Of a stretch of 64,000 bases of DNA, positions 23,401 to 44,582 are shown piece after piece. Both the position numbers and the translations under genes were made by a program. Below the pieces are notes generated by a model that did no database searches, was not told where the DNA came from, and worked only from the letters and a program-made list of their open reading frames with translations. Origin of the DNA: Planctomycetales bacterium (GTDB taxonomy: Bacteria > Planctomycetota > Planctomycetia > Pirellulales > Pirellulaceae); assembly GCA_020426845.1 (NCBI GenBank), contig JAGQPF010000083.1, positions 1 to 64,000 of the forward strand, in the 5' to 3' direction. Every line of letters begins with the position of its first letter. Positions within the stretch are counted from its first letter, which is position 1.

Positions 23401-26400
23401 TGTCCACGTCGGTGGTCGACGCGATGCGGCCGGCGATGCTGACAACCGCGCGGTCGCTGGCCAGCACGTTGCCGACTCGCTGAGCGGTGGCGACCGTGTC
23501 GTTGACCGTGTTGTCCTCGGCGATCTCACCCAACAGCGGCGAGTGAATGGGCTGGCCCTGCACCGAGATGCCCGTGCCGGCAAAACGAATGTCGGCGTTG
23601 CGAATGGTCGAGCCCGGGAACTCGTCCAGTGTGTCCAGCCGCAGTTGCAATTGATAGGCGCCCTTACCGCCCGCGCTGCTGACGCGAATGAAGTACGGCC
23701 CCTGCACTCCGGCGGCGCCGGGCAGGCGAATCGCGAAGCCCGCGTCGCGTGGATTGGTGGTGTAGCGATCGGGATCGGAGAACTCGGAGATCTGCAGCGG
23801 ATTGACCGTGCCGGGCAAAATGAACGACGCGGTCTGAATCAGCGTCGGGTCGTCGATCTCCGCGGTCGAGTTGTCGGACCGAGCGAGCACGGTGCCGTCG
23901 GCCGCGAGCAACTCGACGACCGTGTCCAAAGCGTGCGTCGTGCGATCGATGTCGATCACGACCGGCGTGCCGGCCTCGGCCTCAAACCGATAAATGTCGG
24001 CGTCCGCGCTGGAGCTAAGGATGCCGTTGACCTGCAGGCCCAGGCGCAGGTTCTCGTCCGAGGTCGCGAAGCTGGGGGACAGCTGGCCGATGTCCTCGGC
24101 CTTGTCGATCGTGCCGTTGGAGCCGGTGATTGCGTCTTGCGGCTCCAGTTCGTTCAGCACATCCACGTTGCGGTCGTGCGAAAACGCCTCGAGCACAACG
24201 CCTTGCCAGTCGCCAGGGGCGCCGAAGACCGGGCCGGTGTCGGGATCGCCGGGATCGCTGGGCAGCAGCTCGAGGAAGCTGGTCATGACCGCCGTGTTGG
24301 CATTCGGGTCCACCGACCAAGCGAATGCCGTCGTGACGTCGTTGGGGCCCCAAGAGTTGCCAAGCGTCGCGTCAACGAACAGCGGCAGATCGGTGAGATC
24401 GATGTTGCCGGGAATCGTATAGGTCGTGCCGGCGCCGCCGATGGCGCTGATCAGGTCGGCAAACCGATCCGCTGCCCAGCCGTCGTAGGTGGCGTTGACC
24501 AAGCCGGCCCCGGGCGTGACGATGCCGCCCTGGGCAAATCCGACGCGTTCCGGACCGTCCAGCGTATAGGCCCGGAAATCGTCGGCGCCAGGCGTGCCGG
24601 TGGTGGTCAGGAAGTCGTCCGAAACTCCGCCCAAGTCCTCGTCCAGGTAGTTGATGAATTGAATGGTGCCCAGCGGCTGTGCGCTGCTCAGGGTGACCTG
24701 ATTGGTGAGCCGCGTCTCGCCCGATTGGATGCTGGTGATGACTTCCCAGTTGACGATGTTGCCGTTGTTGCCAACCAGCGTGCCGGTGCTCTGCACCACG
24801 TCGGGAGCAATCAGCGTGGGCGCCTGCGTGATCGTCGTGGTGCTGAGGTCGATGGCATTGCCGTTGGCGCCGACGTCGATGTGGTTGGAGAAGTCGAAGA
24901 TGAAGTTGAAGTTGGTGATCAGGCCGCTGACGGCGCCTTGGAATGTGGCGCGGTCCGAGCCGAAGAAAATGTTGCCGCCGGGGCCGGGCTGGACGCCGAA
25001 CGAGCCCGGAATGGTGTTGGCCACGTCGTTGTCGATCGCCGTTCCCAGGTTTACCTCGGGGCCCGTCGGCAGCGTCGTTCCACCGCCGCCTCCGCCGCCG
25101 CCGGGCGGGTTGGCGAGGTCGATGTTCTCGGTGTTGACCTGCGGCAGGCCCTCGGGCGTGAAGCCGGCGCCGACGGAGTAGTCGGTCAGCGAAGTCAGCA
25201 CGACTGGCTTGCCGGGTTGACCGAGGATGTGCAGAGCGCCGCCGACGCGGTCGTCGATGTCCAGCTGCTGTCCGGCGGCGACGAAGCCGGCCGTGGCGCC
25301 GCTGAGTTTGACAACCAGGCTTTCGGTCGCGGAGCTCTCCAGCCGCAGTCCGCCGTAGGTGTGCAGATCGGGCACGGTGATCTGATCGAAGACGACGTGA
25401 ACAATGTCCGTGTCGTCCCAGACGCCGTCGCGCGTCAGCGTGCCGCCGCGGACCACGACGCCGTTGATGTCGTTGTTGTTCAGCAGGTTGCCGCGAATCA
25501 GCGCGCCTTGGTTGCCCAGCGCGCCGGTGAACGCGTCCGCCTCGCCCACGCTGCCGCCGTAGTCTTCGACGAGCTCGCCCGACATCGAGTTGACGTCGAT
25601 GGAGATCGCTTGCGCGACGTTGTCGCGGAAGATATTGTTCACGATGATCGGCTCGTTGCCGCGGACAAACACGGCGGCCGGCCCGTTGGCGCCGCGCCCG
25701 AACCGATCGTCGGCGATCGCCGCCTCGCCGGGAGCGCTGAGCTCAATCACCGAGTTGGCGAGACGGAACTGGGACTGATGGGCCTCGATCGCGCTGAAGC
25801 CGCGGAAGGCGCCCGATTGCCGCGTCGTGCCGCCGCCGTAGGCGACAACCGCGTGCTCCAGGCTCACGGTCGACTCGTGCCAGCCGAAGATGCCGGCCCA
25901 GTTGCCCGGCTGCGAGATGTCGTTGACACCGTCATCGTTGGTGTCGAAGGTGCCGCCGGCGCCGTAACGCTGATCGTGGATCGAGGTGAACACCACTTCC
26001 TCGCCGTCGCGCCCCTCGGCGATCAGCTGGGCGCCGACGCCAACGTCGATCACCGCATCGGAGATCTTGACGATCACCCGCGGGTCGACGGCCAGGCGGG
26101 CGTCCGTACGCGCCCGCAGCTCGGGAGTGAACTCGGCCAGGGCGCCGCCGATGGTCGTGCCGTCGTCGACGAACGTGGTGGTGAAGCTGTTGATCTGTCG
26201 GGCGAGCACAAAGGCGCCGCCGTCGATGCTGCGATAGATGCGGCGAGCCACGAAGCCGTTGGCGATCGGCACATTGGTCAGCGTGATCGACTGCGACGAG
26301 CCGCCGGCGATGGTGATTGGGGTGGTCGCATTGGACGGCGGACCCTCATTGCCCGCCGCGTCGACGAACACCACGCGATAGCGGTAGTCGCCGGCAGGCA

Positions 26401-29400
26401 GTGCTGCGCCGGTTGTCACGGGGTTGGCCGTCGAGACGACCAGATTCACCGGCGGGGCCGCGTCGGTGGTGGTCGGCCCGCCGGGGGTCGCCTGAATCAT
26501 GAGATTCTCGGCGAGCACGTGGGTGATGCTCGCGTCGTCGAAGCGGGCGGCGACGGTCAGCGGCAGGGCGCTGGCGCCGGCTGGCGTCCGAACCTGAATC
26601 TCCAGGCCGTTGACTGAGTTTCTCGCCAACCGGTTGTTGACGATGTCGGGACCAATGCGCGTGTAGTCCGAGGTGAACTCGCCGGGCAGCTGGTATTGCG
26701 TGCTATGGAAGTTCGTCTCCTCGAACGTGTCGGGCGTCGCCTTAATCGCGCTGCCCGCGTTGTCGTGGATCGAGTTGTAGCTGATCGTCGCGCGGGCCTC
26801 GTCCAGTTCGATCGGCGAGACCGCTCGGCTCTGAGCGTCGATCACGACGTCGCCGCCGGCGTACTGAATGTCGGCGTTGTTGATGTAGTTCAGGAAGATG
26901 CCCCGCGACTCGTAGTCCTTGCGGCTGGCATCCGCCTTGTCGACCCGGCGTCGGAAGATAATGCCGCCCCAGTCCGCCTCGGCTGGGTCGGGAGGATTGA
27001 AGTTGGGGTCGGTGTCGGTGCCGATCAGGTCGTCGTGGATCGAGGTGAAGTAGACGCTGCCCGGCAGCACGTTGCCCGAGCTGTCGCGGCGAACCTGGCC
27101 GCTGGCGTCGATCAATCGCGGCACGCCCAGCACCTGCAACGCGGCGCCGCTGCGGTCGACCACGGTGTCCGAACTGCCCACGCCGATGCGGGCGTGGCGG
27201 AGCTTGATGATCGCGCTGCTGTCAATCATCACCGTGCGGTCTTTGGGGATCTCCAGCGCCGTGCCGTCAGCCAACGCCACATTCAAGGCGCTGAAGCCGA
27301 TCTCATACGCCTTGTTGTCGGCGACGGTCGAGAGGTCGCCGTCGGCGCCGCCGTTGCCAACGATGCGGATGATGTCGCCGGCCACCGAGGCGCTGATCGC
27401 GTCCTTGATGTTGCGGAACAGCCGCGGAGTGCCATGCGCCGGGCCGGAATTGGCGATTGCGTCATTGGTGGCCGCCTTGTCGACGAACAGCAGATGGTTG
27501 TTCGACTGCGTGCGGAACCAGAAGTTGTAGGCGCCACCCGCGACGCCATCGCCGTCGCCATCCAGCGCGGTCGGCGTCAGGTCCGCGTCGACGATGCGAT
27601 TCGTGTCGCCCAGCCCGCGGAAATTCAGACGCAGCTCGTAGGCGCCCTCGGTGACGCCGCCAAAGCCCGAGTCGTCGACATCGGGATTGAACGCGTCGTT
27701 GCCGCTGGCGCTGACGGCCACAAAGTAGGTGCCCGGAGTCAGCTCGACCTGCAGCAGTGAGTCCTCGCTGTTGTAGTCGTCGTTGCGGGCCACCAGCTCG
27801 TGAGCGCCGGTCTCGGTCTCGCGGTAGAGCGTCAGCGTCGTGTCCAGCAAGCTGGTGTTGGCCAGCCGCTCGGCAAACGTCTCGGCGGTCAGCACGCCCG
27901 TCTCGTTGACGGCGAACTTGTAGACGTCGATGTCCTTGCTTTCCGGACGGTACAGGAACTGCCCGTGGATGATGTCGCTGTCGGCCGGGAAGATCGGCTC
28001 GGCCGCCACCGGGTTCAGCGTCGGGTCGCTGCCCATGATCGCCGGATCGGGCAGCTCGTAGTTGTGCCCCAGCCCGAGCAGGTGGCCGATTTCGTGCATG
28101 GCGGTTTGGAACCAGGGGCCGCCGAACACGTCGTCGCCCGAGTCGTCGAAGTCCTGGAGATCCATGATCGCCAGGCCTTCGAGCCCGCCGCCCGCGACGC
28201 CCAGCACGCCGCCCACTCCGTTGACTTCCATCAGCGGCGCCATGTCGCCCGTGACGATGGTCATGCCCGAGCTCGGCGTCTCGATGAACTGGATGCCGAG
28301 CAGGTCGCTGTAGATCTGGAAGATCTCGCGAGCGCGCTGCTTCTGCAAGTCGGTGATCGCGTTATGCAGCACTCCGCCCAGCGTGCCCACGCCGTAGACG
28401 TCCTGGAAGTTGTAGAAGGCGGTGGTGATGCCCTCCACCACGTCGGCGCCTTGCAACAGGTGCGTCTCGACGGGAATGTCGCGGTGGCCGATGTCGTCAA
28501 TGCCGCCGGGCAACGTGAAGCGGTAAGGCTGCCCCGTGTTGTCGATGGTGCCGCTGACGATGATGCCCTGCTTGGCCAGCTGGATGCCGGTCAGGTCGGG
28601 CGACAGCGAGATGCTCAGGTCCCCGTCGATCAGCAACGTGTTGCCGTTGGCCACGACATCCACGTCCAGGCCGGGAGCTGACAGAATCACGTCACGGATC
28701 TGCGCCACCATCTGGCTTTGCACGATCTGGGGCACAAACTGAATCTGGCGATTGTCGCCGTCGACTCCGTTCGCCTGGCTGCCCTCGAACTCGAACGTCA
28801 CGCTGGTGCCGTCGAGATCGGTGATGGTGAATCGCTGGCCATCGGCGAACACGTCGCCGCCGCCGAGCACCACCATCGCCGACCCGGTGTCGAATGTGGA
28901 GCTCAAGTCGAGCGCGCCCGCGAAGGTGTCGTCGGGGTCGACCGTCGGCGTCAACCGGTTCGGAGCGAGCGGCGTGCCCTCGTCGGTGCCGATCCGCAGC
29001 CGCCACGAGCCCGCGCCGCCGCCCGGCACCAGCTCGTCGATCGGGGAGGCAAAGGTCAGCGTGGCCAAGTCCTGGTCGGCGTTGTAGCTGACGCTGGTTG
29101 GCAGGAAGGTCAGGTCGTCGGTGTTGGTGACCGTGTCGTTGGAAAGCAGCAGCTTGTAGAAGCTGGGCGTCTCGGCCGAGGTGCGGTCGAGGTCGTCGTC
29201 GTTGAAGTACACCAGGATGGTGTCGCGCAACTGATGGAGCCGGCCCTGGCTGTCTCGCTCGATCGGCTGCGGGACCACCGAGATGATCTGCGCGCCCAGA
29301 TCCAGCTCGAAGGTCAGGCTCTCGTCAATGGCGCCGTTGTTGAGCAACACGCCTGACGGCGTTTGCAGCGGGTTGGCGCCCGTGCCCCGAACGGTCAATT

Positions 29401-30454
29401 GGTAGGTGTCGTCCGGCAGCGGCTCGGCGAACCGCATCACCACCTCGCTGGGCACGGTTCCCAGGCCGACAAAGCCCGGCACGATCGCCACGTCGTTGGC
29501 GCCGGTCAACGTCAGCGGCGCCGGAGGCGCGGTGTTGCCGATCACCGTCAACGGGCTGCCCGAGTTGATCGAGGCCCGGATCAACTGGTTCACGGTGGCA
29601 TTGTTGTTGACCGCCGTGATCAATCCCAACGCCGTGGTTTGATTGCCCGGGTTGCTGTTGACGACGATGTTGACCACGCGGTTGTTGACCGTGATCTGCG
29701 GCGGCGCCGCGCCGCCGAAATTGTTGACCGAGAAATTGACGACAATGCCGCTGCCCGCCGCGCCGGTCGCCACCGAGCGGAATTCGATCTCCAGCCCCAC
29801 CTTGTTGAAGTCGACCGTGCCTCGCGACGTGTTGGCGCCGGTCAGCGTCAGCGGCGAGTAGTTCACCGCGCGATTGCCGATCGTCGTAAACGCGTTGCCG
29901 CCCGTCACCGACGCCTGGACCAAGGAGGCCACCGCCGGATTCGCGTTCATCGTGTCGCGCAGATCAAAGGCCCGCGTCACCGCCGACGGGTTCGAATTGA
30001 GCTCGATGAAGATCGTGTTGCCCTGCACCGTCAACGCCGGGTCGCGATTCGTCGAGCTCAAGTCCGCCGTGCTGACGATCAACGTGACGCCGTTGCCGGG
30101 ATCCCCCGGCACCGCCGCGTCGAAACGCATCTGCACCGCGCCGTTGGTGTTGAAGTCGGAGCTGACGGTCGCCGAGGCAAACGCGCCGTCGCCGCCGGCT
30201 CGAATCAACTGGATCGCGTCCAACGTCGAGGGATCGACCGCTTGGTCGAAACGGAGTGTGATGTCCTGCGGCGCGACATTGCGGATGTCGCCGTTCTGCA
30301 TCAGCACGCCATCATTGGGCAGCACGCCCGCCAATGTCAGTCCCGCCAACAACTGGCGGTCCTCCAACTGCTCCAAACGCATCGCCGGCTTTTCGGGCCG
30401 AGCTGCGTGTTGGCGTTGGCGTTGATTGCGGGGGCGTCGAGAACGGATGACCAT
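14492..30454 (-). CDS. giant (5320-residue) exported multidomain protein with metzincin motif, PPC, beta-helix, GEVED and dockerin domains
   Basis: One uninterrupted 16-kb frame. The start ATG at 30454 is followed by a very basic tail and LEQLEDRQLLA (residues 28-38), the LEPR-XLL-type export motif. Domains in order, approximate residues: Ig-like/filamin-like segments (40-500); metzincin protease region with HEIGHLLGLGH (about 786-796), then a segment with IMGS as Met-turn candidate; a prepeptidase-C-like (PPC) domain (830-935); parallel beta-helix segments (about 1200-1700) rich in 'NNDINGVVVRGG'-type turns; further PPC-like domains (about 2100-2450, 3490-3600, 3990-4130); a second beta-helix (4140-4290); recurrent 'FEFD' repeats (see separate entry); a GEVED domain (about 5045-5130); dockerin repeats (about 5140-5220); a (GE)n run; and an acidic C-terminus. 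It is likely extracellular or cell-surface. The active-site motif is intact, so proteolysis is plausible; the target is unknown. Confidence 0.9.
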   Translation of the reverse strand: MVIRSRRPRNQRQRQHAARPEKPAMRLEQLEDRQLLAGLTLAGVLPNDGVLMQNGDIRNVAPQDITLRFDQAVDPSTLDAIQLIRAGGDGAFASATVSSDFNTNGAVQMRFDAAVPGDPGNGVTLIVSTADLSSTNRDPALTVQGNTIFIELNSNPSAVTRAFDLRDTMNANPAVASLVQASVTGGNAFTTIGNRAVNYSPLTLTGANTSRGTVDFNKVGLEIEFRSVATGAAGSGIVVNFSVNNFGGAAPPQITVNNRVVNIVVNSNPGNQTTALGLITAVNNNATVNQLIRASINSGSPLTVIGNTAPPAPLTLTGANDVAIVPGFVGLGTVPSEVVMRFAEPLPDDTYQLTVRGTGANPLQTPSGVLLNNGAIDESLTFELDLGAQIISVVPQPIERDSQGRLHQLRDTILVYFNDDDLDRTSAETPSFYKLLLSNDTVTNTDDLTFLPTSVSYNADQDLATLTFASPIDELVPGGGAGSWRLRIGTDEGTPLAPNRLTPTVDPDDTFAGALDLSSTFDTGSAMVVLGGGDVFADGQRFTITDLDGTSVTFEFEGSQANGVDGDNRQIQFVPQIVQSQMVAQIRDVILSAPGLDVDVVANGNTLLIDGDLSISLSPDLTGIQLAKQGIIVSGTIDNTGQPYRFTLPGGIDDIGHRDIPVETHLLQGADVVEGITTAFYNFQDVYGVGTLGGVLHNAITDLQKQRAREIFQIYSDLLGIQFIETPSSGMTIVTGDMAPLMEVNGVGGVLGVAGGGLEGLAIMDLQDFDDSGDDVFGGPWFQTAMHEIGHLLGLGHNYELPDPAIMGSDPTLNPVAAEPIFPADSDIIHGQFLYRPESKDIDVYKFAVNETGVLTAETFAERLANTSLLDTTLTLYRETETGAHELVARNDDYNSEDSLLQVELTPGTYFVAVSASGNDAFNPDVDDSGFGGVTEGAYELRLNFRGLGDTNRIVDADLTPTALDGDGDGVAGGAYNFWFRTQSNNHLLFVDKAATNDAIANSGPAHGTPRLFRNIKDAISASVAGDIIRIVGNGGADGDLSTVADNKAYEIGFSALNVALADGTALEIPKDRTVMIDSSAIIKLRHARIGVGSSDTVVDRSGAALQVLGVPRLIDASGQVRRDSSGNVLPGSVYFTSIHDDLIGTDTDPNFNPPDPAEADWGGIIFRRRVDKADASRKDYESRGIFLNYINNADIQYAGGDVVIDAQSRAVSPIELDEARATISYNSIHDNAGSAIKATPDTFEETNFHSTQYQLPGEFTSDYTRIGPDIVNNRLARNSVNGLEIQVRTPAGASALPLTVAARFDDASITHVLAENLMIQATPGGPTTTDAAPPVNLVVSTANPVTTGAALPAGDYRYRVVFVDAAGNEGPPSNATTPITIAGGSSQSITLTNVPIANGFVARRIYRSIDGGAFVLARQINSFTTTFVDDGTTIGGALAEFTPELRARTDARLAVDPRVIVKISDAVIDVGVGAQLIAEGRDGEEVVFTSIHDQRYGAGGTFDTNDDGVNDISQPGNWAGIFGWHESTVSLEHAVVAYGGGTTRQSGAFRGFSAIEAHQSQFRLANSVIELSAPGEAAIADDRFGRGANGPAAVFVRGNEPIIVNNIFRDNVAQAISIDVNSMSGELVEDYGGSVGEADAFTGALGNQGALIRGNLLNNNDINGVVVRGGTLTRDGVWDDTDIVHVVFDQITVPDLHTYGGLRLESSATESLVVKLSGATAGFVAAGQQLDIDDRVGGALHILGQPGKPVVLTSLTDYSVGAGFTPEGLPQVNTENIDLANPPGGGGGGGGTTLPTGPEVNLGTAIDNDVANTIPGSFGVQPGPGGNIFFGSDRATFQGAVSGLITNFNFIFDFSNHIDVGANGNAIDLSTTTITQAPTLIAPDVVQSTGTLVGNNGNIVNWEVITSIQSGETRLTNQVTLSSAQPLGTIQFINYLDEDLGGVSDDFLTTTGTPGADDFRAYTLDGPERVGFAQGGIVTPGAGLVNATYDGWAADRFADLISAIGGAGTTYTIPGNIDLTDLPLFVDATLGNSWGPNDVTTAFAWSVDPNANTAVMTSFLELLPSDPGDPDTGPVFGAPGDWQGVVLEAFSHDRNVDVLNELEPQDAITGSNGTIDKAEDIGQLSPSFATSDENLRLGLQVNGILSSSADADIYRFEAEAGTPVVIDIDRTTHALDTVVELLAADGTVLARSDNSTAEIDDPTLIQTASFILPGTVNPLQISEFSDPDRYTTNPRDAGFAIRLPGAAGVQGPYFIRVSSAGGKGAYQLQLRLDTLDEFPGSTIRNADIRFAGTGISVQGQPIHSPLLGEIAEDNTVNDTVATAQRVGNVLASDRAVVSIAGRIASTTDVDMYEFQLNYEDVQPGTAGGLVPVVIDIDYADGLGRPNTTISIFDAAGALVATTRDGNIGGDLPRAGKGLDLTDLSRGSVGDADAFLGPFLLGEGTYTLAIHNDTIASANYGQYTQANPNNPLARLEPNISVVRIVDEHIDGGLGTAADPIVPDFLGNQGVVPYFLGDVVLYVSQASPAVDNAEVLTVNPFTGATLVNLGNVGREIADIDFRNDQTLVALTKDLTDVIFEDAEAGNYLTIDDTGAANPLGTLVADDGIQTFELDLTSPPNPVRSNLFNNARIGDGIHFEAIEVGTFNNAGEIGLAVGNRPCFSIDTVTRLCNSTDDYRRPPGIPTNYNILYQFDPQTGVAFSSPAPDRTSTNLVSGAGTQIVERGFLNTDASLGSATSNTKLVITAEPTILDPGTIINIADEQVTFTVDPGPLAPSDVFQLVSGPEIQLTMLPGTPNPLSTTEVPSIFMDGWIFNIDGTDYEIDTGGVLVIERDARFIEDGDLFVLTDLDGASQTFEFDKNNNVQTPGAIAVPINSALSAFQVAQRVVNTVNAQGGFTFSAALLNTANPNFNTRISFIDTRSVSATQLTPSNAALVVEGQQGSVTGNIVIPIEETSNNQDFVVSILNVFSTLPGAEASAEGDRVNFPGAMTGDFSGILNGAATAGVNSPIVDLMHDGTPSLAGAIPVPFGVDDTALELAQRIVDVLNDTYVLNPTDPLFAQLDGSGNVELVLGGVFTAADDPLETAGDAPGGSITGITIASPAGGQQRVYAVSSNGGLYQIINPTTPLGAQAVYVNSSTQLTGIEFAGLTTGPRSVEGGRYADLLFAIDTSGEIYAFDYNGVLQPVFMDGATSIQTGLTGANGLVFAGLDRNLWSETTIRSGDAGNGIAPVPDRLGVPNTQTMRFGGGINTPGGAFGAVESEYFSLEGYSSLDQPVLYFNYFLETENANSAIAMRDAFNVYINYDGDNWDLLADNNSATNVAQQNTYDIGDAGAPNSWRQARVDLSAYAGMKNLSLRFEFHTGATYEFGTPRIGGFEIRALSGDQLRDGEVFTIDNTNFELEFGPTLVAPTGTNIQDGQQFKIHNVTFEFDKSGNGVPSNNVVEIDVSNDLSPDAVALVIEQALASADYVYRANLSEVNSTPNDKLTDVVDTGLLGGGDRFEATGTIGDNLGGADVDLVRLQLNIGDVLDVQVGSPGPNVLNPVIRFFDQSGVPIGVPVIGNTATFTAAVSGTYVVGLSGEGNETYDITGPSTATNGDTGAYTLALIVNGFNGITPRTFDNRIQLDGGVKFDPLTSTVEADGAAGVSPGNVMVDIHSDMTDDEVAVVIQQAIADTFAGGQTNAIKRYNQVVKIIGHTLVDAGPMPGITGSLPGHDAGAGSTVFDTGPNSFPQGELRFQNNNIEGVYIDDIIIGFAERGEVATLTTPDDSFVPNPLAVGGVPTGEYQAEIRLGAPIEGTTFQTNDRFEGQSATLQAPGANELIDGQTFVISDGVSSAIFEFEDVNIGNGVAPGRTPIPFDPSRVNALGIIDPEPGYVIAQRIVQAVNSPAVQGILDVTAALSDGVYNIDPFIPADQNSTSNQVNLFGDFVDIGASVPVLLTPDMSIAAEFAVVNVGNDTDVTATDSGNAGGIAATIVTSGTIGDNPNKTGFDAPLDVDLIRVRLATGDVVTIDVDAAELGSTLDSYIRVFDLTGNELAANYSGRAPDDELATTDSYLQFVAPASGIYYIGVSGVSQDTDSLGTPLFDMFGNPILIGNLDYDLQLSPSGTADGATTGDYSLTIDILSGGIEVIRYTDVQFGDKNVVRDQGQLIIESTIVRNSANFGIDVGAAPRTGPDTDVPHQGAVRNLRELNTQRLVPGAVLMNNVLIENDLGGIRFAGDANPGQAAAVPFGRIFNNTLVGNGGTLPNSAGGNDTGILVENNASPTIANNIIANFATGVDISADSQTTVLGGNLVQGNGANLSGTTPSLGESAIVLADTETLFLDRANGVYYLGAGSRAIDSSISRMDDRGVMTTVKMPLGLGDSPILAPLTDALGQIRKDDPNTGTPGSTGEDMFVDRGAIERADGAGPTAILIVPRDNDSSGVDRDPTVTIVELSNENSLSNFTIQLLDGVAPVDSANGVGVNDNAVSPDQITILRDGVELIVGVDYRFGYDSLNDVIRLTPTAGLWETDHVYKIIMANGDQFVLTAPDGATTNDGDTFTITDQDGNVVTFEYDSGYLLTVEETLTLQIPEEGGTLGGVTDREQITVFDGAQTFVFEFDNNGNTSGGTIPVIFTPVMTDDEVAQQLVDALESANVGLQPKLIGDGKVHLGASPVHTFDITLAPSLSLSGSQTAGGVVDGDVLIVDDGTVLTQYEFDNDGQLNDTANTRLAFNYNLTHIELAQLIGDRLTADTTLTPLQLANGRVHIGGTRVTVVDASASNLTLSGQPGVFSEFGIQIPSVAGQPNGIVDQMTFQVGNGISLPVTFEFDDDGDFVLGNTLITFNANTTLDQLANQIASQISAVGIGLSPINVGGGFIELTNDTINHVFNPLTSPLLQTGTPGVAGNEAIPFIPDVTFTAIDMAAAVADAINASDLNSVGTQRGDDVLVSNVGTITGIVDAFVESIRDYAGNVLQANQGDGTTQFTILFGDGQDFGDAAGLPTLEAVNGARHTVVPGYSLGADVDVDPDGQPTFAADGDDTNSRDDEDGVTHDGIVPGFTTTFTITANGITATRPGFLDAWVDFDHDGVLEPNEKIANSMPLVNGANQITMPIPATVTLGDSLARFRLSSTGGLGVSGPASDGEVEDYRFQVTASGWTNPANQFDVVPDSVITPFDLLKVLVFLQTQGPQMAPKNAPIVVGSTVFDLPPASSYYDVTRDGQITINDLRVLFNFMAADGEGEGEGEGEGLAMASTQFDTTTLSANALGAPLTNSGSTLGAGTVREIEFLLTPPPEVDAESESLLDSLPIDTIVDQVAGEIASRRELEESEDVDAFFAQFELE
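15730..16860 (-). repeat. four tandem 'FEFD' repeat units inside the giant protein
   Basis: Residues about 4530-4910 of the giant protein contain four successive units with the pattern DGDxFxIxD...TFEFDxDG...IxFxxxxTxxxxAxxIxxAI...G.VxLG. Examples of the core are VTFEYDSG, FVFEFDNNGN, TQYEFDNDGQ and VTFEFDDDGD. Single copies of the same unit appear elsewhere in this protein, near 28860-28640 (VTFEFEGSQ), 21990-21700 (QTFEFDKNN), 20310-20050 (VTFEFDKSGN) and 19020-18800 (AIFEFEDVN). This is a protein-level repeat with low DNA identity, so the expansion is old. Confidence 0.75.
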
Positions 30455-30890: not shown

Positions 30891-31085
30891 TCAGCCCTGA
30901 CTACTCCGAGTCAGCAGCTTTAACAGGGGGGCTGCCTTTCCTCGATCGAGGTAGATGCGGTGCTGGTCGTCAAAGTCGATGCGCACGCCGTCCTCGTCCG
31001 GATGGTCGTGGATCGCTCGAATGAGTTCAATGTTCAGGTACTGGATCCGATCGTTTTCAATCGCGATCGGGATAAACTTGGCCAT
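30891..31085 (-). CDS. small conserved-looking hypothetical protein (64 aa)
   Basis: The ATG at 31085 is preceded by GAGGAG at 9 bases, a strong ribosome-binding site, which argues for a real gene. The product MAKFIPIAIENDRIQYLN... is compact, with alternating strands and an acidic centre (HDHPDEDGVRIDFDDQHRIYL). There is no membrane segment or signal. It is the last member of the minus-strand run headed by the PspA-like gene, separated from the thioredoxin-like gene by 151 bases that contain a palindromic repeat. No function can be assigned. Confidence 0.7.
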   Translation of the reverse strand: MAKFIPIAIENDRIQYLNIELIRAIHDHPDEDGVRIDFDDQHRIYLDRGKAAPLLKLLTRSSQG

Positions 31086-31209
31086 CGGCGCTGCTCCTCG
31101 GGGTTAAGTGCCTGTCTGTTAGCCTATGTGTATATGTGGAAAGGTCTTAGGCTGGCGGCCCGGTCGTGGTGCAGGCTGCCCGACTGCAACCTGCGGCAAC
31201 CACAATCCT

Positions 31210-31228
31210 CACAGGCTGGCAGCCTGTG
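31210..31228. repeat. palindromic interspersed repeat, copy 1 (CACAGGCTG...CAGCCTGTG)
   Basis: Perfect 9-bp arms with a 1-base centre, followed by CTACG. A second copy with the same arms and a 10-base centre, followed by CCACG, lies at 59732-59759. Both are intergenic, as expected of REP-like elements. This copy overlaps no gene and lies 9 bases past the stop of the thioredoxin-like gene, so it could act as a transcript-end hairpin. Confidence 0.7.
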
Positions 31229-31236
31229 CTACGTTC

Positions 31237-31797
31237 TCAGTCGCCGTGCTTGCTCCTCAAACGGGGGGATAGCCGCAAAATCCAGTGGACGCGTTCAAAT
31301 TCCTCCAGCCAGTCCTGAATGACCGCCGCAGTCAGCTCGGCCGGCGGCAAACCGATGCCCGTCGGACAGGTGCCTCCCAGCTGCTCTCGCGACATCTGTC
31401 GATATTTGGATAACGTGCGGTCGCCATGTCGCGCCACGAATTCGCCCTCCTCATTGAGAAACAAAACTTGGGGAACGCGGGCGCCGCCGCAGATCGTCAG
31501 CGATTCTTTCCACGGCCCGCCGTCCCGATCGACATAGCGAATCCGGAGTCCCGGGCAGCTGGCGGCAAATCGCTCGAAAATCGGGATCTGCTGGATGCAA
31601 TCGCCGCACCAGGCGCCTGCCATGCAGAGCACGCGAATCTCCCGCGTCCAGCTGCCGAGCAGCTCAAGCTGCGGACCCGTCAGCTCGATGGCCGCCTCCA
31701 TCTGTCGCCAGAGGCCCATTTCGGCGTCGGAGGCGTACTGTGCCAGGAAGTCGCCATAGCCGATCCCGTGGTTCTCAAAGATCTCATTCCAGTCCAT
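31237..31797 (-). CDS. thioredoxin-like protein with CGDC motif
   Basis: The 186-residue protein has a thioredoxin fold: a helical N-terminal extension (1-50), strand REIRVLCMAGAW, redox motif WCGDC (Cys64/Cys67) followed by a helix, strand LRIRYVDRD, and the cis-proline loop RVPQVLFLNEEGEF. There is no signal peptide, so it is likely cytoplasmic. It resembles bacillithiol/thioredoxin-9-type proteins more than classic TrxA, which carries CGPC. The reductant and target are unknown. It ends a minus-strand run with 66 bases to the upstream gene. Start ATG 31797 follows a purine-rich stretch (AGAGAAG). Confidence 0.8.
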   Translation of the reverse strand: MDWNEIFENHGIGYGDFLAQYASDAEMGLWRQMEAAIELTGPQLELLGSWTREIRVLCMAGAWCGDCIQQIPIFERFAASCPGLRIRYVDRDGGPWKESLTICGGARVPQVLFLNEEGEFVARHGDRTLSKYRQMSREQLGGTCPTGIGLPPAELTAAVIQDWLEEFERVHWILRLSPRLRSKHGD

Positions 31798-31863
31798 GCG
31801 GTCGCTTCTCTTTCTCTCTCGGACTCGTAAAGTGTGTCGTAAAGTGTGCGATTCGGTGGAATC

Positions 31864-32481
31864 TTAGCTGTCGACGCGCGGGGTGCGCGCCGTGTGCGAG
31901 GCGTGCAGGGTCACGCCGATGCCGAGCGACTCGGCGAAGTAGCTCATGAATTCGGTGTACGCACGCCGCACATCGGCGGGGTCGGTGGCCTGCTCGCAAT
32001 CGCAAAAGCAAACATCCCACTCGCTTCGCCACTGCTCGCCGCGAGCTTCTTTGCGCTTTTCCAGCCGCGTTCGCAGCTGAGCGTCCTTGCCCCAGCCCGC
32101 GAAGGTCGAGTAGCAGGATTCCATGAACTGGTTGTAGTAGCGGATGAATTCGGGCGGGAACAGCGGGGCGTTGACATACGCGATCCGGTCGAGCTTCCGT
32201 TTAAGCCGCACCGCCTCGGGCGGCTCCAACTCCTTCCAGGCTCCGATGAACGTCATGTAGCAAAGCAGATCATTTAACATCGGCGCAAACGTATCAAACA
32301 CGTCGAGGCGTTTTTGGACCACCTGTTGGTTCGTCCACTGGCGATGCTCGAGGCTCTGGAGGCGCCGGTTGACGGCGAAGCCGAGAATCAAAATCGTCAG
32401 GGGACTCAGGGTGCCGATCACCAACTTGATCACCTCGAGGCTATTCCAGGGCGATTCGGCCAGCAGCAATGAAGCGTGCAT
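31864..32481 (-). CDS. hypothetical membrane-anchored protein
   Basis: The start is the ATG at 32481, with GGAG 5 bases upstream; a longer frame to 32547 adds a low-complexity basic stretch and is disfavoured. The 205-residue product has one strong N-terminal transmembrane segment (about residues 17-38, IKLVIGTLSPLTILILGFAV), then a long helical, charged region and a Cys-containing segment (WDVCFCDCEQ). The topology suggests a membrane anchor with a cytoplasmic helical domain. It follows the membrane protein at 32692 on the same strand after 210 bases. I do not recognise the family. Confidence 0.65.
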   Translation of the reverse strand: MHASLLLAESPWNSLEVIKLVIGTLSPLTILILGFAVNRRLQSLEHRQWTNQQVVQKRLDVFDTFAPMLNDLLCYMTFIGAWKELEPPEAVRLKRKLDRIAYVNAPLFPPEFIRYYNQFMESCYSTFAGWGKDAQLRTRLEKRKEARGEQWRSEWDVCFCDCEQATDPADVRRAYTEFMSYFAESLGIGVTLHASHTARTPRVDS

Positions 32482-32691
32482 CTTGGCTCCGGGACGAAAG
32501 GGGCTGCGAAGAAACGACGAGCTGTGCGGCGCCGCGATGGTTCCCACGCGCCGCGCCTCGTACGGGACCAGAACGGCAAAACGCTCATCGTACCGAATCG
32601 GGCGCCATTCATTCCTTGGACGATGCGAGTCACGCCCGCCACGGGTCGGTCGAAACCACGCGGCTCGGCCCGCGGCACGGCGTTGGAGCTT

Positions 32692-33204
32692 TCAGCTGGT
32701 GGGCGGGTCGTCGCTTCGACCGGGGCCGCCGGTGCCGCGGGGCTTTCCGTGCGGGCCTTGGGGCTTTTCGTCGGCGACTCCTTCGTCGGCGACTCCTTCG
32801 TCGGCGAAGTCGCGATACGATCGCAACATCAGTCCGGCGCCGGCCGCGAACATCACAATGACGCCGAGCAGGAAGGTGGTTTTGACGTTCATGTGGAAGC
32901 GAATGCGACTGAGAATCTCGATCACGATGACGGCCAAGCCGACCCACATTAAGACCCACGCCCACTTTTGGCTCGCGTCATAGAACAACGCCATGACGCC
33001 GAGAAAAAACGGGACGAACAACAATCCCGTCGAGGTCGTGTCCCACATCCCGCCGCCGCCACGACGGAGCATGCCGCCGAAGACGCCGTGCGCGTCGGTG
33101 GTGGCGTTGACGGAGTCAAAAAAGAAGTAGAGAGCCAGCACGGACAGACCAAAGCCCGCCCAAAACTGTCCGGCGCCGCCTTCCGTTCCCCCCGATCCAC
33201 GCAT
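32692..33204 (-). CDS. hypothetical multi-pass membrane protein with C-terminal ADEGV repeats
   Basis: The start is taken at the ATG 33204 (MRGSGGTEGGAG), because the upstream part of the longer frame overlaps the neighbouring gene and is low-complexity basic. The 170-residue product has about four hydrophobic segments (FWAGFGLSVLALYFFF, GLLFVPFFLGVMALFY, WVLMWVGLAVIVIEIL, TTFLLGVIVMFAAGAGLM) with a Gly-rich loop GGMLRRGGGGMW. The tail has a tandem ADEGV-ADEGV-ADE repeat, reflected in a 15-bp DNA repeat near 32775-32810, and ends in a polar Gly/Pro region. It sits in the PspA/AAA+ cluster; a part in membrane stress is inference from context only. Confidence 0.7.
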   Translation of the reverse strand: MRGSGGTEGGAGQFWAGFGLSVLALYFFFDSVNATTDAHGVFGGMLRRGGGGMWDTTSTGLLFVPFFLGVMALFYDASQKWAWVLMWVGLAVIVIEILSRIRFHMNVKTTFLLGVIVMFAAGAGLMLRSYRDFADEGVADEGVADEKPQGPHGKPRGTGGPGRSDDPPTS

Positions 33205-33283
33205 CGTGTCACTCGCTTTGGCGCGTTGGCCGACTTCGTTTTGCCGACTTCGTTCTTGCCGATCCGATGGCCTCGGTCCGGCC

Positions 33284-34183
33284 TCAGTCGGTGATGTAGA
33301 TGGTTTGACGCAGCAGCTCCGGCGCATGGTCTTCGGCGGGGCCCAGGTGGGTGATGAAGTCCAGCTCGCCGAGCGTGACTTCGGTCTCCAGCACACTTTC
33401 GGCCACCTCGTCGACACGGCTCGTGATCAGCGACGGCTCCTGGCGGTTGACGGCCATTTCCGCGAGCGTCTTGATCTTGTTCTCCAACCGATCCAGTTCG
33501 AGATCGATGTACTCGTGATTGGCCTCGGCCTTGCGGTAGTTATCCAGTCGCGACCGGGAGATCTCGAGATGGTCGACCAACGTGTCGCGGATCTTCTGCA
33601 GGTGCTCGACCTCGGACGGATGGGAGATGTCCGCTTGGTCGTGCAGCTCGAGCCGCTGCTCCAACCGGGCGATATCCTGGACGATTCTTTCCTCATCCGT
33701 GCGATCGAGGAATTTGGATAGCGAGCTCTGCGTGAATTGCAGCCGCAAGAATACCCACAGCAGTCGGTCGAGCGCCTCGAGCTGATTCTCCTCGAGACCG
33801 ACGCGTCCTTTGCGCTGGCCATCGTAGCGTTCCAGATCCTCGGCGATCTCGCGCAGATCGAGCAGCCAGGTGCGCAATCGTTTGAAGCGATCCTGTGACT
33901 CGGTGGGCAGCGAGTTGAGCAGCCTCGCGGCGAGATCGCGCGAGCTGCGTTTTCGCCGTCCGAGGTTTCGCGGCGCGGGGCTGGATTCGCGGTCGACCAA
34001 CGCGCGGAAACGGGGATGTCCGGTCGCGAAGCCAAGATACGCCGCTTCGGCGGCCAGCAGCGCGGTCAACGCCCACTGCGCATGTCCGCTGACCGACGCG
34101 AGCGCTGCGCCGCCGGCCACCGCCAGCAGGTTCCAGCGATTCAGCAACGCAGCGCGAAAATATTCCCCGAATTTCCAGGCCAT
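33284..34183 (-). CDS. membrane protein with long coiled-coil region, PspA/AAA+ cluster
   Basis: The 299-residue product (ATG 34183; a TTG at 34198 overlapping the previous stop is possible) has two short N-terminal hydrophobic segments (NLLAVAGGAALASVSG, WALTALLAAEAAYLGFA). After them comes a long acidic/basic helical region, about residues 90-270, with coiled-coil character (ERIVQDIARLEQRLELHD, EYIDLELDRLENKIKTLA). There is no enzyme motif. Because it is encoded directly after the AAA+ ATPase and the small acidic protein, it is a candidate membrane receptor or adaptor for that ATPase or for PspA. That role is inferred from gene order alone. Confidence 0.75.
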   Translation of the reverse strand: MAWKFGEYFRAALLNRWNLLAVAGGAALASVSGHAQWALTALLAAEAAYLGFATGHPRFRALVDRESSPAPRNLGRRKRSSRDLAARLLNSLPTESQDRFKRLRTWLLDLREIAEDLERYDGQRKGRVGLEENQLEALDRLLWVFLRLQFTQSSLSKFLDRTDEERIVQDIARLEQRLELHDQADISHPSEVEHLQKIRDTLVDHLEISRSRLDNYRKAEANHEYIDLELDRLENKIKTLAEMAVNRQEPSLITSRVDEVAESVLETEVTLGELDFITHLGPAEDHAPELLRQTIYITD

Positions 34184-34194
34184 CGCGCGAAGCG

Positions 34195-34494
34195 TCAACC
34201 CCGGAACTTGGTCGTGGACGCTGCCATGCGAGCTTCGTGCAACTCGTGCAGCACCTGCATTACGCTAAAGGCCGACAATTCGCAAAGCAGCTCCGTCACC
34301 TTGGCGTGCGCGGCGTCGTCCAGCATCGGCTCGACGGCTTGCATCGCTTCGATCACGCGTTTCTCCTGGGCTGCGACCTCTTGGTCATCGACGTGTCCGT
34401 CGGCCATCGCTTCGACAAACGAAGCGAGGTTTTTCGCCTTGTCATCAATGATGGTCGACTGCCCGTCTTCGGCAAGCCATGATTCACGTGCCAC
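34195..34494 (-). CDS. small acidic helical protein between the AAA+ ATPase and coiled-coil membrane protein
   Basis: GGAG lies 6 bases before a GTG at 34494, which I take as the start (99 residues); a TTG two codons earlier is also in frame. The product MARESWLAEDGQST... is helical, with the central acidic motif ADGHVDDQEVAAQEKRVIEAM and a short C-terminal helix rich in Leu/Ala. It has no membrane segment. Its 3' end abuts the coiled-coil membrane gene, so translation is probably coupled. The compact helical design resembles small adaptor proteins, but no family is recognised. Confidence 0.7.
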   Translation of the reverse strand: MARESWLAEDGQSTIIDDKAKNLASFVEAMADGHVDDQEVAAQEKRVIEAMQAVEPMLDDAAHAKVTELLCELSAFSVMQVLHELHEARMAASTTKFRG

Positions 34495-34578
34495 GGTCAA
34501 CTCCGGGGAATGAGGAAATCGTTCAAAGGAGACGGAAACCCTAACAGGTTATTCGGTCGTTGTGTGCTTCCACGGCCG

Positions 34579-36324
34579 TTACTCCTCGGCGTGGAGCATG
34601 CGTTTGATGCGCTGAGCTTCGCGCTGCAGCAGTGTGCGGCCGTCTTCGCGCTGCACTTCCTCTCGCCACGCGGGCGGCAGGAAGGACATGTCGGTGCATT
34701 CCAGCACGGCGCAAATCTCTTGGCGAGTTTTCTCGAGCCCTTGGGCGGAGGGGATAAAGCTGGCCAGGGCGGTCTCGAGGTGCTCTCGCGTGACGGTCGC
34801 GTCGCCGGCGGTCAGTGCGCTGCGTCGGGCGGCGAGCATGATGCTTTCGACGTCGGCGCCGCTCAGTTCGCGTTTGGCGCTCACTGCCGGAATCGCGTCG
34901 TCGGCCAGCGGCACCTTGTTCTTGCGCGCCATGACGCGGAACATCTGGGCCAGCTCGTCGTCCTCGTCCGGGTAAAACAGCGGAATGTGGACCTCCGCCC
35001 TGCCCTGTCGTTTCAGGTCGATCGGCAGCAGATCCGGTCGGCTCGTGAGCAACATCCAGATGATGCGTCCGCGGTACCGCGTGTTGCCCATCTGGCTGGC
35101 GATCATCGAGAACACTCGGCCGGAGGTGCCGGAATCGCCGCCCGATTGGCGATCGCCCAGTGCGGCGTCCGCCTCGTCGATAATCACCACCACGGGTCCC
35201 AGCGACCGCAGCACGTTCAGCACATGCTCGAGATTGCCCTCGGTCTCCCCGACGTACTTTGAACGGAAGTTCTTGAGCACCACGCAGGGGATGCCGATCG
35301 AGCCGGCGAAGCATTCGGCGAGAAACGTCTTGCCGGTGCCGACGGGTCCGCAGAGCAGGTAGCCCATCGGGGCCGCGTCGAGTCGTCCTTGCTCGATGAA
35401 CTTTCCGTCTTGCCGCAGCCGCGCTTTCGCGGCCGTATGTCCCACCACCATCTCGAGCGTGTGTTCGGGCTCCACAAACGTGACCAGCCCTCGGCACTGC
35501 CGCTCAATCATCGTCTTCTTGAGCTCGCCGAAGCGATCGGGGCCGAGCTTGTCGTCGCCGCCGCCCGAGAGGACCACGTTCAGGCTAACGAGGTTGAGCC
35601 CGTTGGAGAGCTGCGTGAGGCCCTCGACATCCAGGCCCTCCAATTTGCTTTCGGCCTGCTCGCCCAGCGATTTGCGGATGAAGACGCGGCGCGACTCGGC
35701 CGAAGGCAGCGGCACGTCGATCGTGGCCACGTGCGGGCTTTGCACCAGGCGATCGTTGATTTCGGGCAGGCTGTCGGCGATCAGAAAGAAGGCCGTGTTG
35801 ATCTTCTTGAAGTACGGGTTTTGGGCCCAGCCAAGCAGGCGGACCAGCCGCGACGCCCGACCGCCGCTCAGCGAGTTGAGGTCGCCGCTGGGCATCAGGA
35901 ACTGCGCGTAGGGGAAGACAAAGCACATCTGCTTGACCGACGCGTCCATCAGGTTGCGTTCGGCCAGCTGATCGACCACTGACAGAACCTTGTCCGGCTC
36001 CCGGGGCCAGTTGATCTGGGGCCCCATCTTCCCGGTCAGGTAGTTCATCATCTCGCGGTGGCGCGGCTGATCGCCACCCGTGATCGGCTTTAATCCTCGA
36101 GCCAAGTCGTAGCCGAGCACCAAGTCCCAGCCGCCGAAGAGTTGGGTGGCGAGGAAATCGGTCAGCGTGAGGAACTGGTCGGGCTGCTGGGGCGTGGGGC
36201 AATGCAGCAGGTCGTGGACGTTGCCGTGCAAGATGAAGGTGCAGGTCGTCCCGGATAAGTAGAGATCGACCAACTCCTGCGCCCATTCGGGAAAGACGAA
36301 GGAGTTGGGTAGTGCTTCGGCCAT
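34579..36324 (-). CDS. AAA+ ATPase with degenerate N-terminal AAA domain, paired with PspA
   Basis: The 581-residue protein has an intact C-terminal AAA+ module: Walker A GPVGTGKT (326-333), Walker B VVVIIDEAD (378-386), sensor LLTSRPD (425-431), arginine-finger region KRQGRAEVHIPL (438-449) and a helical lid to about 545. This is the CDC48/FtsH/Vps4-like type. The first 270 residues look like a second AAA-like domain without the P-loop: FILHGNVHDLL replaces Walker A and TAFFLIADSLPEINDRL stands at the Walker B position. There is no membrane segment. It is encoded 50 bases downstream of the PspA-like gene. By analogy with ESCRT-III/Vps4, it may remodel or disassemble PspA polymers; that is inference from the pairing. 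Confidence 0.85.
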   Translation of the reverse strand: MAEALPNSFVFPEWAQELVDLYLSGTTCTFILHGNVHDLLHCPTPQQPDQFLTLTDFLATQLFGGWDLVLGYDLARGLKPITGGDQPRHREMMNYLTGKMGPQINWPREPDKVLSVVDQLAERNLMDASVKQMCFVFPYAQFLMPSGDLNSLSGGRASRLVRLLGWAQNPYFKKINTAFFLIADSLPEINDRLVQSPHVATIDVPLPSAESRRVFIRKSLGEQAESKLEGLDVEGLTQLSNGLNLVSLNVVLSGGGDDKLGPDRFGELKKTMIERQCRGLVTFVEPEHTLEMVVGHTAAKARLRQDGKFIEQGRLDAAPMGYLLCGPVGTGKTFLAECFAGSIGIPCVVLKNFRSKYVGETEGNLEHVLNVLRSLGPVVVIIDEADAALGDRQSGGDSGTSGRVFSMIASQMGNTRYRGRIIWMLLTSRPDLLPIDLKRQGRAEVHIPLFYPDEDDELAQMFRVMARKNKVPLADDAIPAVSAKRELSGADVESIMLAARRSALTAGDATVTREHLETALASFIPSAQGLEKTRQEICAVLECTDMSFLPPAWREEVQREDGRTLLQREAQRIKRMLHAEE

Positions 36325-36374
36325 GCTCTAACCGCGGACTGGGAACGAGGGGAAAAGCCGTTTCCCGTCGCAGC

Positions 36375-37118
36375 TTATTCCGTTTCGGACTGCTTGGGGC
36401 CGAGCTGCTTCGGCGCCTGTTCAACCTCGGCCGTTTCGGGCGTGATCATGCCCGAGTCGATTTCGAATTGTCGCAGCGCGTCGTCCGCCAAGGACGCCTC
36501 CATCGCTTCTTCTCGCTCGATGTCGGCGATGCCTTCGGTGGAGAGGTCCGCCGAGACGCGCGCCTTGGCCCGATTCTGGCCGATGCGGTCCTGCAACACC
36601 TCTTCGATCTGGCCAAAGTCAGTGGTGATGTCGAAATTGAACGACTCGGCCAACTCGGCCATCTCGGCCTCGGCGCGGCTCATTTTCAGCTCGGCGTCGT
36701 ACTTCTGGATTTTTTCCTTGATGCGGTTCAGCTTCTCGCCGGCGTGCTTGATTTTGCGGACGTTGTTTTCGTACGCCTTTTCATGCATGTCGAGCTGCGA
36801 TTGGTTCTCGGCGAGATCGTCCTTCGCCTTTTGCAGCTCCAAGGCAAACTTGGCGGCCGTCTCGCGGTCTCCGGCCTTCAAGTACGCCTTCACCTTGGAC
36901 TCGAGGCTCTGGCAGTGCTTGGAGGACCGCTCGACCTGTCGAGTGACTCGCTCCACCAACGCGCGATACTGCTCCAGGCCCACGCGGCCTTGCTTCAGCT
37001 CCTCGACCGCCGTGTCGTACTCGAGCTGCATCTGGGCGATCGGATCAACCTTCCAGAAGAAGTTGGCCAGCTTATTAAACTGGGCCTTCATCGCCCGCCA
37101 GATTTTTCCGAAGATCAT
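36375..37118 (-). CDS. PspA/IM30 (Vipp1)-family protein
   Basis: The 247-residue product begins MIFGKIWRAMKAQFNKLANFFWKVDP, an N-terminal amphipathic helix typical of the family, and continues as an almost unbroken coiled coil: QLEYDTAVEELKQGRVGLEQYRALVERVTRQVE, then a long Lys/Glu/Gln hairpin. The C-terminal part has two further helices (FGQIEEVLQDRIGQNRAKARVSADL) and a disordered acidic tail. PspA proteins belong to the ESCRT-III superfamily and bind and repair stressed inner membranes. The start ATG at 37118 follows AAAGG at 5 bases. It is first in the minus-strand cluster, ahead of the AAA+ ATPase. No PspF, PspB or PspC gene is seen nearby. Confidence 0.85.
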   Translation of the reverse strand: MIFGKIWRAMKAQFNKLANFFWKVDPIAQMQLEYDTAVEELKQGRVGLEQYRALVERVTRQVERSSKHCQSLESKVKAYLKAGDRETAAKFALELQKAKDDLAENQSQLDMHEKAYENNVRKIKHAGEKLNRIKEKIQKYDAELKMSRAEAEMAELAESFNFDITTDFGQIEEVLQDRIGQNRAKARVSADLSTEGIADIEREEAMEASLADDALRQFEIDSGMITPETAEVEQAPKQLGPKQSETE

Positions 37119-41466: not shown

Positions 41467-42796
<1,330 letters not shown>

Positions 42797-42813
<17 letters not shown>

Positions 42814-42937
42814 GCGAGGGATCGGCAGTTCCATCCCCGCCTGAAGTAATCGACACCACGTTGGGAGCGGAAAGGAAACCCGAAGCGTAAGCGAGGGATC
42901 GGCAGCTCCATCCCCGCCTGAACCAATCGACACCACG
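42797..42937 (+). repeat. dispersed repeat, copies B and C in tandem, covering the phoR stop codon
   Basis: Two 64-bp copies at a 77-bp period (42797-42860 and 42874-42937) differ at only a few positions. Both begin with the ACCCGAAGCGTAAGCGAGG core and continue through CGGCAG(T/C)TCCATCCCCGCC to CGACACCACG. The TAA of phoR is inside copy B. Confidence 0.85.
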
Positions 42938-42959
42938 CATCTCCAGGCATTGTCGTCCG

Positions 42960-44369: not shown

Positions 44370-44582
44370 GGATCTGGCTTTCGGGGTTGGTGCGTGCCGG
44401 TTGGAAAGTTTCCTGTTCCCCGGGCCGCGAATCAACCCGAAACTGACCTCCGCCGTTACTTGGTGAAAGAGGTCGGTAAGGGTGGGTTGTCACCCTTTGT
44501 TGTGGTTTTGCGGCGGTTCCGGCGACAACCGCCGACCTTCACGCCAACGAGATCTTGGCCGGCTCGCTTCGTGAACGAGGGG

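Follow-up and report, generated by a model that had tools for sequence, protein, structure and literature searches.

It is accepted that PspA and Vipp1 are related to ESCRT-III, and to our knowledge no ATPase is known to dismantle PspA/Vipp1 polymers. For the disassembly of PspA polymers, recent structural studies went no further than proposing chaperones or PspF (PMC11746142). Herein, a stretch of 64,000 nucleotides of planctomycetal DNA (the window) was analyzed, in which a PspA gene is followed by the gene of an AAA+ ATPase. The question is whether this ATPase could be the motor that takes the PspA polymer apart. With a little more confidence than doubt, the window is read from its sequence as a reduced member of a known, uncharacterised PspA–AAA+ membrane-remodelling system, in which the tandem-AAA ATPase would disassemble motif-docked PspA polymers. 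If this is true, ESCRT-like remodelling and AAA motors have been joined on more than one occasion. A five-residue motif in the PspA tail, which ties the conserved ATPase to PspA, makes the question of polymer disassembly experimentally tractable.

Gene organization of the cluster

All genes of the cluster are on the reverse strand. The PspA gene (36375..37118; 247 aa; PspA_IM30, ESCRT-III superfamily) was assigned by its PF04012 match and is separated by 50 bases from the ATPase gene (34579..36324; 581 aa), which was assigned by a PF00004 match. These are followed by SM, a small acidic protein of 99 aa with a GTG start (34195..34494), which in most relatives is also encoded beside the ATPase, and by CC, a coiled-coil transmembrane (TM) protein of 299 aa (33284..34183), also a conserved partner. 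The coordinates and the Pfam matches thus confirm the arrangement given in a preliminary description of this DNA, PspA and AAA+ 50 bases apart with SM and CC on the same strand. Four trailing genes (33204-32692, 32481-31864, 31797-31237 and 31085-30891) encode two TM proteins, a thioredoxin-like protein and a 64-aa protein.

PspA, AAA+, SM, and CC are genuine genes, because homologues of all four share a neighbourhood in other phyla. The two trailing TM proteins, which had been counted as further membrane partners, have no homologue in any related neighbourhood; of the four trailing genes, the homologue queries covered these two. The described interval, 30891-37118, thus takes in too much, and the conserved unit is 33284-37118. 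Promoters and terminators were not detected above chance. A phage-defence role was considered and rejected, as the comparison gave nothing beyond faint, generic AAA hits to IetA and noise from coiled coils.

Conservation of the neighbourhood

Neighbourhood conservation had been proposed as a check, and PspA, AAA+, SM, and CC were indeed found together in Planctomycetota and in other phyla. Related neighbourhoods are present in at least six phyla (Planctomycetota, Myxococcota, Acidobacteriota, Gemmatimonadota, Hydrogenedentota, and Elusimicrobiota). The pairing of PspA with AAA+ is genuine and conserved, and the core set common to the relatives consists of PspA, AAA+, an acidic SM of about 97 residues, and a coiled-coil CC with two TM segments. 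Of 33 named loci in which the ATPase is flanked on each side by 7 kb or more, 29 have PspA, and the full set with the transporter is present in 22. The gene order in these loci is fixed and of two kinds. PspA and AAA also co-occur across genomes where they are unlinked. In some planctomycetes, a second small protein of about 210 aa (c7) follows the ATPase; by profile it is unrelated to SM, PspA, or CC.

Most relatives carry a complete transporter set of three genes, which encode an ABC ATPase, a permease, and a fusion of an NMT1-type binding protein with OmpA. The window version is reduced, and these three genes are absent between SM and CC. The rest of the genome to which the window belongs gave no match to the binding protein either. 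Pst-type ABC genes at 44.8-48.5 kb were considered as the missing transporter and rejected, since they form a separate cluster on the forward strand. The gene order had been taken to suggest a complete machine; this is doubtful, because relatives usually carry transporter genes that the window lacks. In most relatives, the ABC importer with its peptidoglycan-binding (OmpA) binding protein is probably the source of an envelope or solute signal. Polymer recycling alone leaves the importer in most relatives unexplained.

The ATPase is modelled as a tandem AAA protein

The PF00004 match of the ATPase covers residues 322-448 (E 9e-24). A degenerate AAA domain (about residues 12-285) precedes an intact classical AAA domain (about residues 286-545). 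The intact domain carries the conserved Walker A GPVGTGKT (residues 326-333; 35326..35349, reverse strand), and also keeps the pore loop K356-Y357-V358-G359, the Walker B D383-E384, and the Arg fingers R439/R442. When 45 ATPases were compared, Walker A, Walker B, and both Arg fingers were invariant (45/45), the pore-loop position was Y or W in every sequence (45/45), and no Walker A was found in the N half.

Profile comparison gave no signal of homology between the two halves, so the structure model (pLDDT 91.7) decided that both are AAA folds; residues 12-285 were predicted as an AAA fold with high confidence. The model was aligned to p97 D1-D2 over 471 residues (Z 22.9) and to Pex1/Pex6 over 483 residues at 4.6 Å. 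The motor domain matched Metallosphaera Vps4 over 250 residues with a Z of 22.3, tied with p97 D2 at 22.5. As modelled, the ATPase has the tandem layout of p97/Cdc48: its first AAA domain is degenerate, whereas the second is intact and carries an aromatic pore loop. The N half may resemble Ycf46.

The ATPase had been proposed to be a Vps4-like motor. All catalytic residues of the motor domain and the aromatic pore loop are kept, which suits a Vps4-like pulling role, whereas the additional degenerate AAA domain, which recalls the p97/Cdc48 layout, and the absence of any MIT match in the ATPase do not fit Vps4. The score against cell_div_CdvC, the NCBIfam model of archaeal CdvC, was 32.5 bits, below the 650-bit cut-off.

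PspA carries a conserved motif in its C-terminal tail

The PF04012 match of PspA (51.4 bits against a curated cut-off of 33.9, E 1.5e-13) is the only one in the genome, and the family profile matches solved Vipp1/PspA across residues 3-211. The N-terminal helix is amphipathic with a moment of about 0.55, a value that other helices of PspA equal.

The C-terminal tail carries K-Q-L-G-P at residues 237-241 (36396..36410, reverse strand), the proposed ATPase docking motif. The AAA-linked PspAs have an isolated K-x-[LMI]-G-P in the tail, or K-x-[LMI] at the C-terminus, within an otherwise variable tail (K237 in 36/38, L/M/I239 in 37/38, G240 in 37/38, P241 in 34/38). The motif was defined post hoc from inspected tails, and it exists in these two forms. 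The relaxed motif was present in 58 of 59 ATPase-linked PspAs, compared with 5 expected from shuffled tails, and the strict motif in 9 of 10 very divergent ATPase-linked PspAs. Of 36 planctomycetal PspAs that have no ATPase beside them, none carries the strict motif. Among the Myxococcota, five ATPase-bearing genomes (G160, G197, G237, G246, G250) encode three PspAs each, and exactly one of the three carries the motif. In Myxococcota, a motif-bearing PspA is present in 28/30 genomes with the ATPase versus 2/56 without it, uncorrected for ancestry. The tree-based test of motif against ATPase held only 9 independent pairs (p 0.5) and had no power. Because of these two limits, the motif could represent a shared derived trait of a single PspA clade, and relatedness alone could explain the Myxococcota correlation. 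As a conserved tag at the end of the ESCRT-III-like PspA, the motif suggests how the ATPase may be recruited.

SM and CC

SM has a net charge of -10, and its gene directly follows the ATPase gene in most relatives. It has no Pfam or PDB relative and belongs to no known family; it may be TerB-like. CC is predicted to have a two-helix membrane hairpin (about residues 17-55) and long cytoplasmic helices, and it also belongs to no known family. CC was considered as a PspA/Snf7 relative, and no signal for this emerged: there was no profile match to PspA, no Snf7 Pfam match, and no Foldseek match below 0.001, and a Vipp1 row at Z 7.7 sits among unrelated coiled coils.

Comparison with known systems

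The preliminary description could not name this set of partners, but the PspA–tandem-AAA–transporter association is already in Ravi et al. 2024 (PMC11237479). Their main text describes PspA with a two-AAA protein whose N-terminal copy is inactive (published examples AEY64321.1 and OGG56892.1), some operons of this type adding an ABC ATPase, a permease, and a PBPB-OmpA protein. The window likewise has PspA beside a tandem AAA+ with an inactive N-terminal copy, while the ABC ATPase, permease, and NMT1+OmpA protein occur in its relatives. A Snf7 homologue with a TM segment is also mentioned there; CC, which has two TM segments and long helices and no Snf7 match, is at most a candidate for it. That main text names neither planctomycetes nor SM nor the tail motif of PspA. 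The PspA–AAA+ pairing is thus already known in outline, and the tail motif is a new finding.

Like ESCRT-III/Vps4 (CdvB/CdvC), the window pairs a polymer protein of the ESCRT-III superfamily with a classical AAA motor, and the proposed recruiting motif in the PspA tail is comparable to the MIM motifs. Unlike Vps4, the ATPase has tandem AAA domains instead of a single one and no MIT domain; unlike ESCRT-III, the motif is K-x-[LMI]-G-P and the protein is a bacterial PspA, not Snf7/CdvB. Two consecutive AAA domains are also found in p97/Cdc48, NVL/Rix7, AFG2, and Pex1/Pex6, and the ATPase superposes on D1-D2; Pex1/Pex6 likewise has one degenerate AAA domain. Unlike these tandems, the ATPase is bacterial and PspA-adjacent, its degenerate domain has no Walker A, and the N-terminal double-psi-barrel adaptor domain is absent, the protein opening with the AAA-like domain at about residue 12. 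The classical Psp systems (pspFABC, Vipp1/IM30) have PspA in common with the window, but no PspF-type activator lies in the cluster, and no PspC match (PF04024) was found in the window's genome (G000).

Proposed mechanism and alternative explanations

The amphipathic first helix of PspA would bind the inner membrane and PspA would polymerise, as is typical of the family. The free C-terminal tail would expose K-x-[LMI]-G-P and dock the polymer on the hexameric tandem-AAA ATPase, with the inactive first ring as the likelier docking platform. The active second ring would pull PspA through its aromatic pore loop, draw out subunits, and thereby recycle or reshape the polymer. The task of Vps4 on ESCRT-III would here be done by a p97-type motor. 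Judging from the gene order, CC probably keeps the machine bound to the membrane and SM is probably an ATPase cofactor; the earlier labels of adaptor and membrane anchor are guesses. A more far-reaching version is plausible at somewhat below an even chance: a dedicated bacterial disassembly machine of the ESCRT-III type on a chassis unlike that of Vps4, in which a p97-like tandem AAA whose first ring is dead is recruited to PspA polymers by K-x-[LMI]-G-P/K-x-[LMI]-COOH, the counterpart of MIM-MIT, with SM as a cofactor not recognised before. On their own, PspA rods hydrolyse ATP slowly (PMC11746142) and may therefore not require a dedicated motor.

Alternatively, the ATPase could work on membrane proteins (CC and the ABC transporter), either as a Cdc48-like extractor or as a chaperone of their assembly, with PspA a membrane-targeting or stress-sensing adaptor and not the substrate. 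This fits the p97-type tandem architecture and the linkage to CC and the transporter genes, which is fixed in most phyla, as well as one genome (G061) that keeps AAA, SM, and CC with PspA undetected and CC at the PspA position, a case that also weighs against the main reading. However, four loci (L101, L104, L111, L130) and the window keep PspA-AAA with no transporter genes nearby, genomes in which PspA and AAA lie apart still retain both, and the tail motif is located on PspA. This explanation is judged unlikely.

In enterobacteria, PspA controls the AAA+ protein PspF. By this precedent, and with PspC not found, PspA could sequester the ATPase, and membrane stress would release it to act on some other target; this is improbable, as the ATPase belongs to the classical threading type and has an aromatic pore loop, and neither a sigma-54-activator domain nor a DNA-binding domain was found in it.

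That PspA and the ATPase are mere neighbours in an incidental operon is hardly credible: only 30/149 planctomycetal genomes have the ATPase, but conservation comes close to refuting this explanation, as the adjacency recurs in many phyla with two gene orders, and the two genes co-occur even when unlinked.

Composition of the PspA-AAA cluster

The coherent unit in the window is 33284-37118, in which four genes lie on the minus strand at the positions reported in the preliminary description. PspA (37118-36375) is followed after 50 bases by the AAA+ ATPase (36324-34579), after a further 84 bases by a small acidic protein of 99 residues (SM, 34494-34195), and after 11 more by a coiled-coil membrane protein of 299 residues (CC, 34183-33284). 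PspA was the only PF04012 match in the 9.5-Mb genome, and PspC had no match there. The preliminary description also counted further membrane proteins as parts of the cluster. Two downstream ones (33204-32692 and 32481-31864) had no homologue across the related neighbourhoods examined and are thus not conserved partners; downstream of CC, the homologue queries covered these two genes, and the interval also holds a thioredoxin-like gene and a 64-aa gene.

In the CC model (pLDDT 87.6), long helices follow a pair of membrane-length helices, and profile, family, and structure comparisons linked the protein to no known fold or family. Similarly, SM matched nothing known in Pfam and PDB comparisons; it is conserved across phyla, with W6, D32, E39, Q43, and other residues invariant. 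From anatomy and gene order, we infer that CC is probably the anchor and SM probably a cofactor. Roughly half of the SM sequences terminate in a short stretch resembling F-[RQ]-G (...TTKFRG in the window, 34198-34215, minus strand), possibly a second short linear motif.

Conservation of the gene set

Among 149 genomes sampled from planctomycetes, 30 had a match for the ATPase, 21 for the window-type PspA, 14 for CC, and 4 for SM. PspA, the ATPase, and CC occurred together recurrently in the fetched planctomycetal neighbourhoods, which also hold an ABC ATPase, a permease (BPD_transp_1), and an NMT1/THI5-like plus OmpA binding protein (SBP). When the ATPase alignment was run against named genomes, 80 loci were found in Planctomycetota, Myxococcota, Acidobacteriota, Gemmatimonadota, Hydrogenedentota, Elusimicrobiota, and a few others. 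Gene content was counted in the 33 loci that have 7 kb or more on both sides of the ATPase. PspA was present in 29, and the pair is conserved within and beyond Planctomycetota; SM and the binding protein were present in 25 each and CC in 23. PspA, the three transporter genes, and CC were found jointly in 22 of the 33. Two gene orders are commonest. In 10 loci the genes run PspA-AAA-SM-SBP-permease-ABC-CC, an arrangement observed in planctomycetes; in 12 they run PspA-SBP-permease-ABC-CC-AAA, with SM optional. SM mostly stands directly after the ATPase, at a median spacing of about 80 bases.

The window cluster is a reduced version of this set. Its relatives carry the three transporter genes at the spot of the 11-base SM-CC gap, and the binding protein had no match in the window's genome, which is about 97% complete. 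The same query was positive in three positive controls and found a copy elsewhere in the genome for four loci without an ATPase-adjacent one (G149, G150, G153, G154); none was found in G061, G130 (same contig as L130), and several others. Single absences are weak because most genomes are drafts. The core can evidently exist without adjacent transporter genes.

In some planctomycetes and one Elusimicrobiota locus, a different family of about 210 aa, c7 (L055:6352-7014, L057:8221-8829, L059:8662-9270, L160:7694-8284), is the neighbour of the ATPase or of CC; where encoded directly after the ATPase, it replaces SM. Profile comparison found c7 unrelated to SM, PspA, and CC. In three loci (L079, L083, L084), the ATPase belongs to a divergent subfamily (28-31% identity) and its partner is a different coiled-coil protein, c11. 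This protein may be a very divergent PspA; it does not pass the PF04012 test and has no K-x-[LMI]-G-P tail motif of the kind described below.

Anatomy of the ATPase and relation to ESCRT-III/Vps4

The C-terminal half of the ATPase is a classical AAA domain, with Walker A and B, both arginine fingers, and the aromatic pore-loop residue kept in 45 of 45 aligned proteins. Within the same alignment, Walker A is missing from the N-terminal half, and the Walker-B-like stretch there is degenerate. The AlphaFold2 model (pLDDT 91.7, pTM 0.88) contains two AAA folds. Foldseek and VIA-align placed the whole chain onto p97, NVL, AFG2, and Pex1/Pex6, with up to 483 residues aligned; the isolated motor domain fitted Vps4 (Z 22.3) and p97 D2 (Z 22.5) equally. 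The two modelled folds, the N-terminal half without Walker A, and the whole-chain alignment to p97 and Pex1/Pex6 indicate that the protein, as modelled, is a tandem AAA ATPase whose first domain is dead. It is not a Vps4, which agrees with Makarova et al. 2024 (PMC11188069), who restrict genuine Vps4-containing ESCRT systems to archaea and eukaryotes.

PspA was reported to co-occur occasionally with a two-AAA+-domain protein whose N-terminal AAA+ is inactive; longer operons of this kind add an ABC ATPase, a permease, and a PBPB-OmpA protein, and ATP-dependent membrane remodelling was proposed for them (Ravi et al. 2024, PMC11237479). The window cluster belongs to this group, so the partner set, earlier regarded as one that could not be named, has a published precedent. 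The main text of that paper does not mention planctomycetes, the small acidic protein, or the tail motif. The present analysis defines which genes are conserved together and adds the variant without transporter genes, the anatomy of the tandem AAA protein, and a candidate motif for recruitment. The proposed ESCRT-III/Vps4-like module stands in part: the cluster plausibly works like ESCRT-III plus its ATPase, although its own ATPase lies outside the Vps4 family. The candidate motif makes this idea directly testable.

A conserved motif in the PspA tail

Past the last helix, K-x-[LMI]-G-P (KQLGP at residues 237-241 of the window PspA) is the one fixed element of a PspA tail that otherwise varies freely. 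The counts were made after the motif had been spotted by eye: the strict form is present in 44 of 59 PspAs of the named ATPase loci, and the relaxed form [KR]-x-[LMIV]-G in 58 of 59, with shuffled tails giving 5. Among planctomycetal PspAs, 9 of the 10 that adjoin the ATPase yet are otherwise very divergent have the strict form, against 0 of 36 without the ATPase nearby. In the tail of the G056 PspA (locus L055), the proposed docking motif occurs in two copies (KEMGP ... KEMGP).

A second form, K-x-[LMI] as the extreme C-terminus, occurs in Myxococcota, where the complete set of PF04012-detected PspAs was checked against an ATPase scan made independently. A motif-bearing PspA was present in 28 of 30 genomes with the ATPase versus 2 of 56 without (Fisher p 5e-18, which ignores ancestry). 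For 18 of 19 C-terminal-form PspAs lacking the ATPase in the fetched region, the genome encodes it elsewhere. Five ATPase-bearing Myxococcota genomes have three PspAs apiece, and exactly one in each carries the motif.

Since the Fisher test ignores ancestry and a tree-based test, with only nine independent pairs, had no power, the correlation may reflect a single PspA clade inherited together with its ATPase. The stronger argument for function is the conservation of the motif inside an otherwise variable tail.

Other observations in the window

A very large predicted extracellular protein of 5,320 aa is encoded at 14492-30454 (minus strand), with a LEQLEDRQLLAG segment at its N-terminus and a metalloprotease-like HEIGHLLGLGHN motif. 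On the opposite strand to the PspA cluster and about 4-13 kb from it, 41467-49899 (plus strand) holds genes whose sequences suggest a phosphate-uptake and phosphate-sensing cluster, comprising a predicted sensor kinase, a PstS/C/A/B-like ABC transporter, a PhoU-like protein, and a response regulator.
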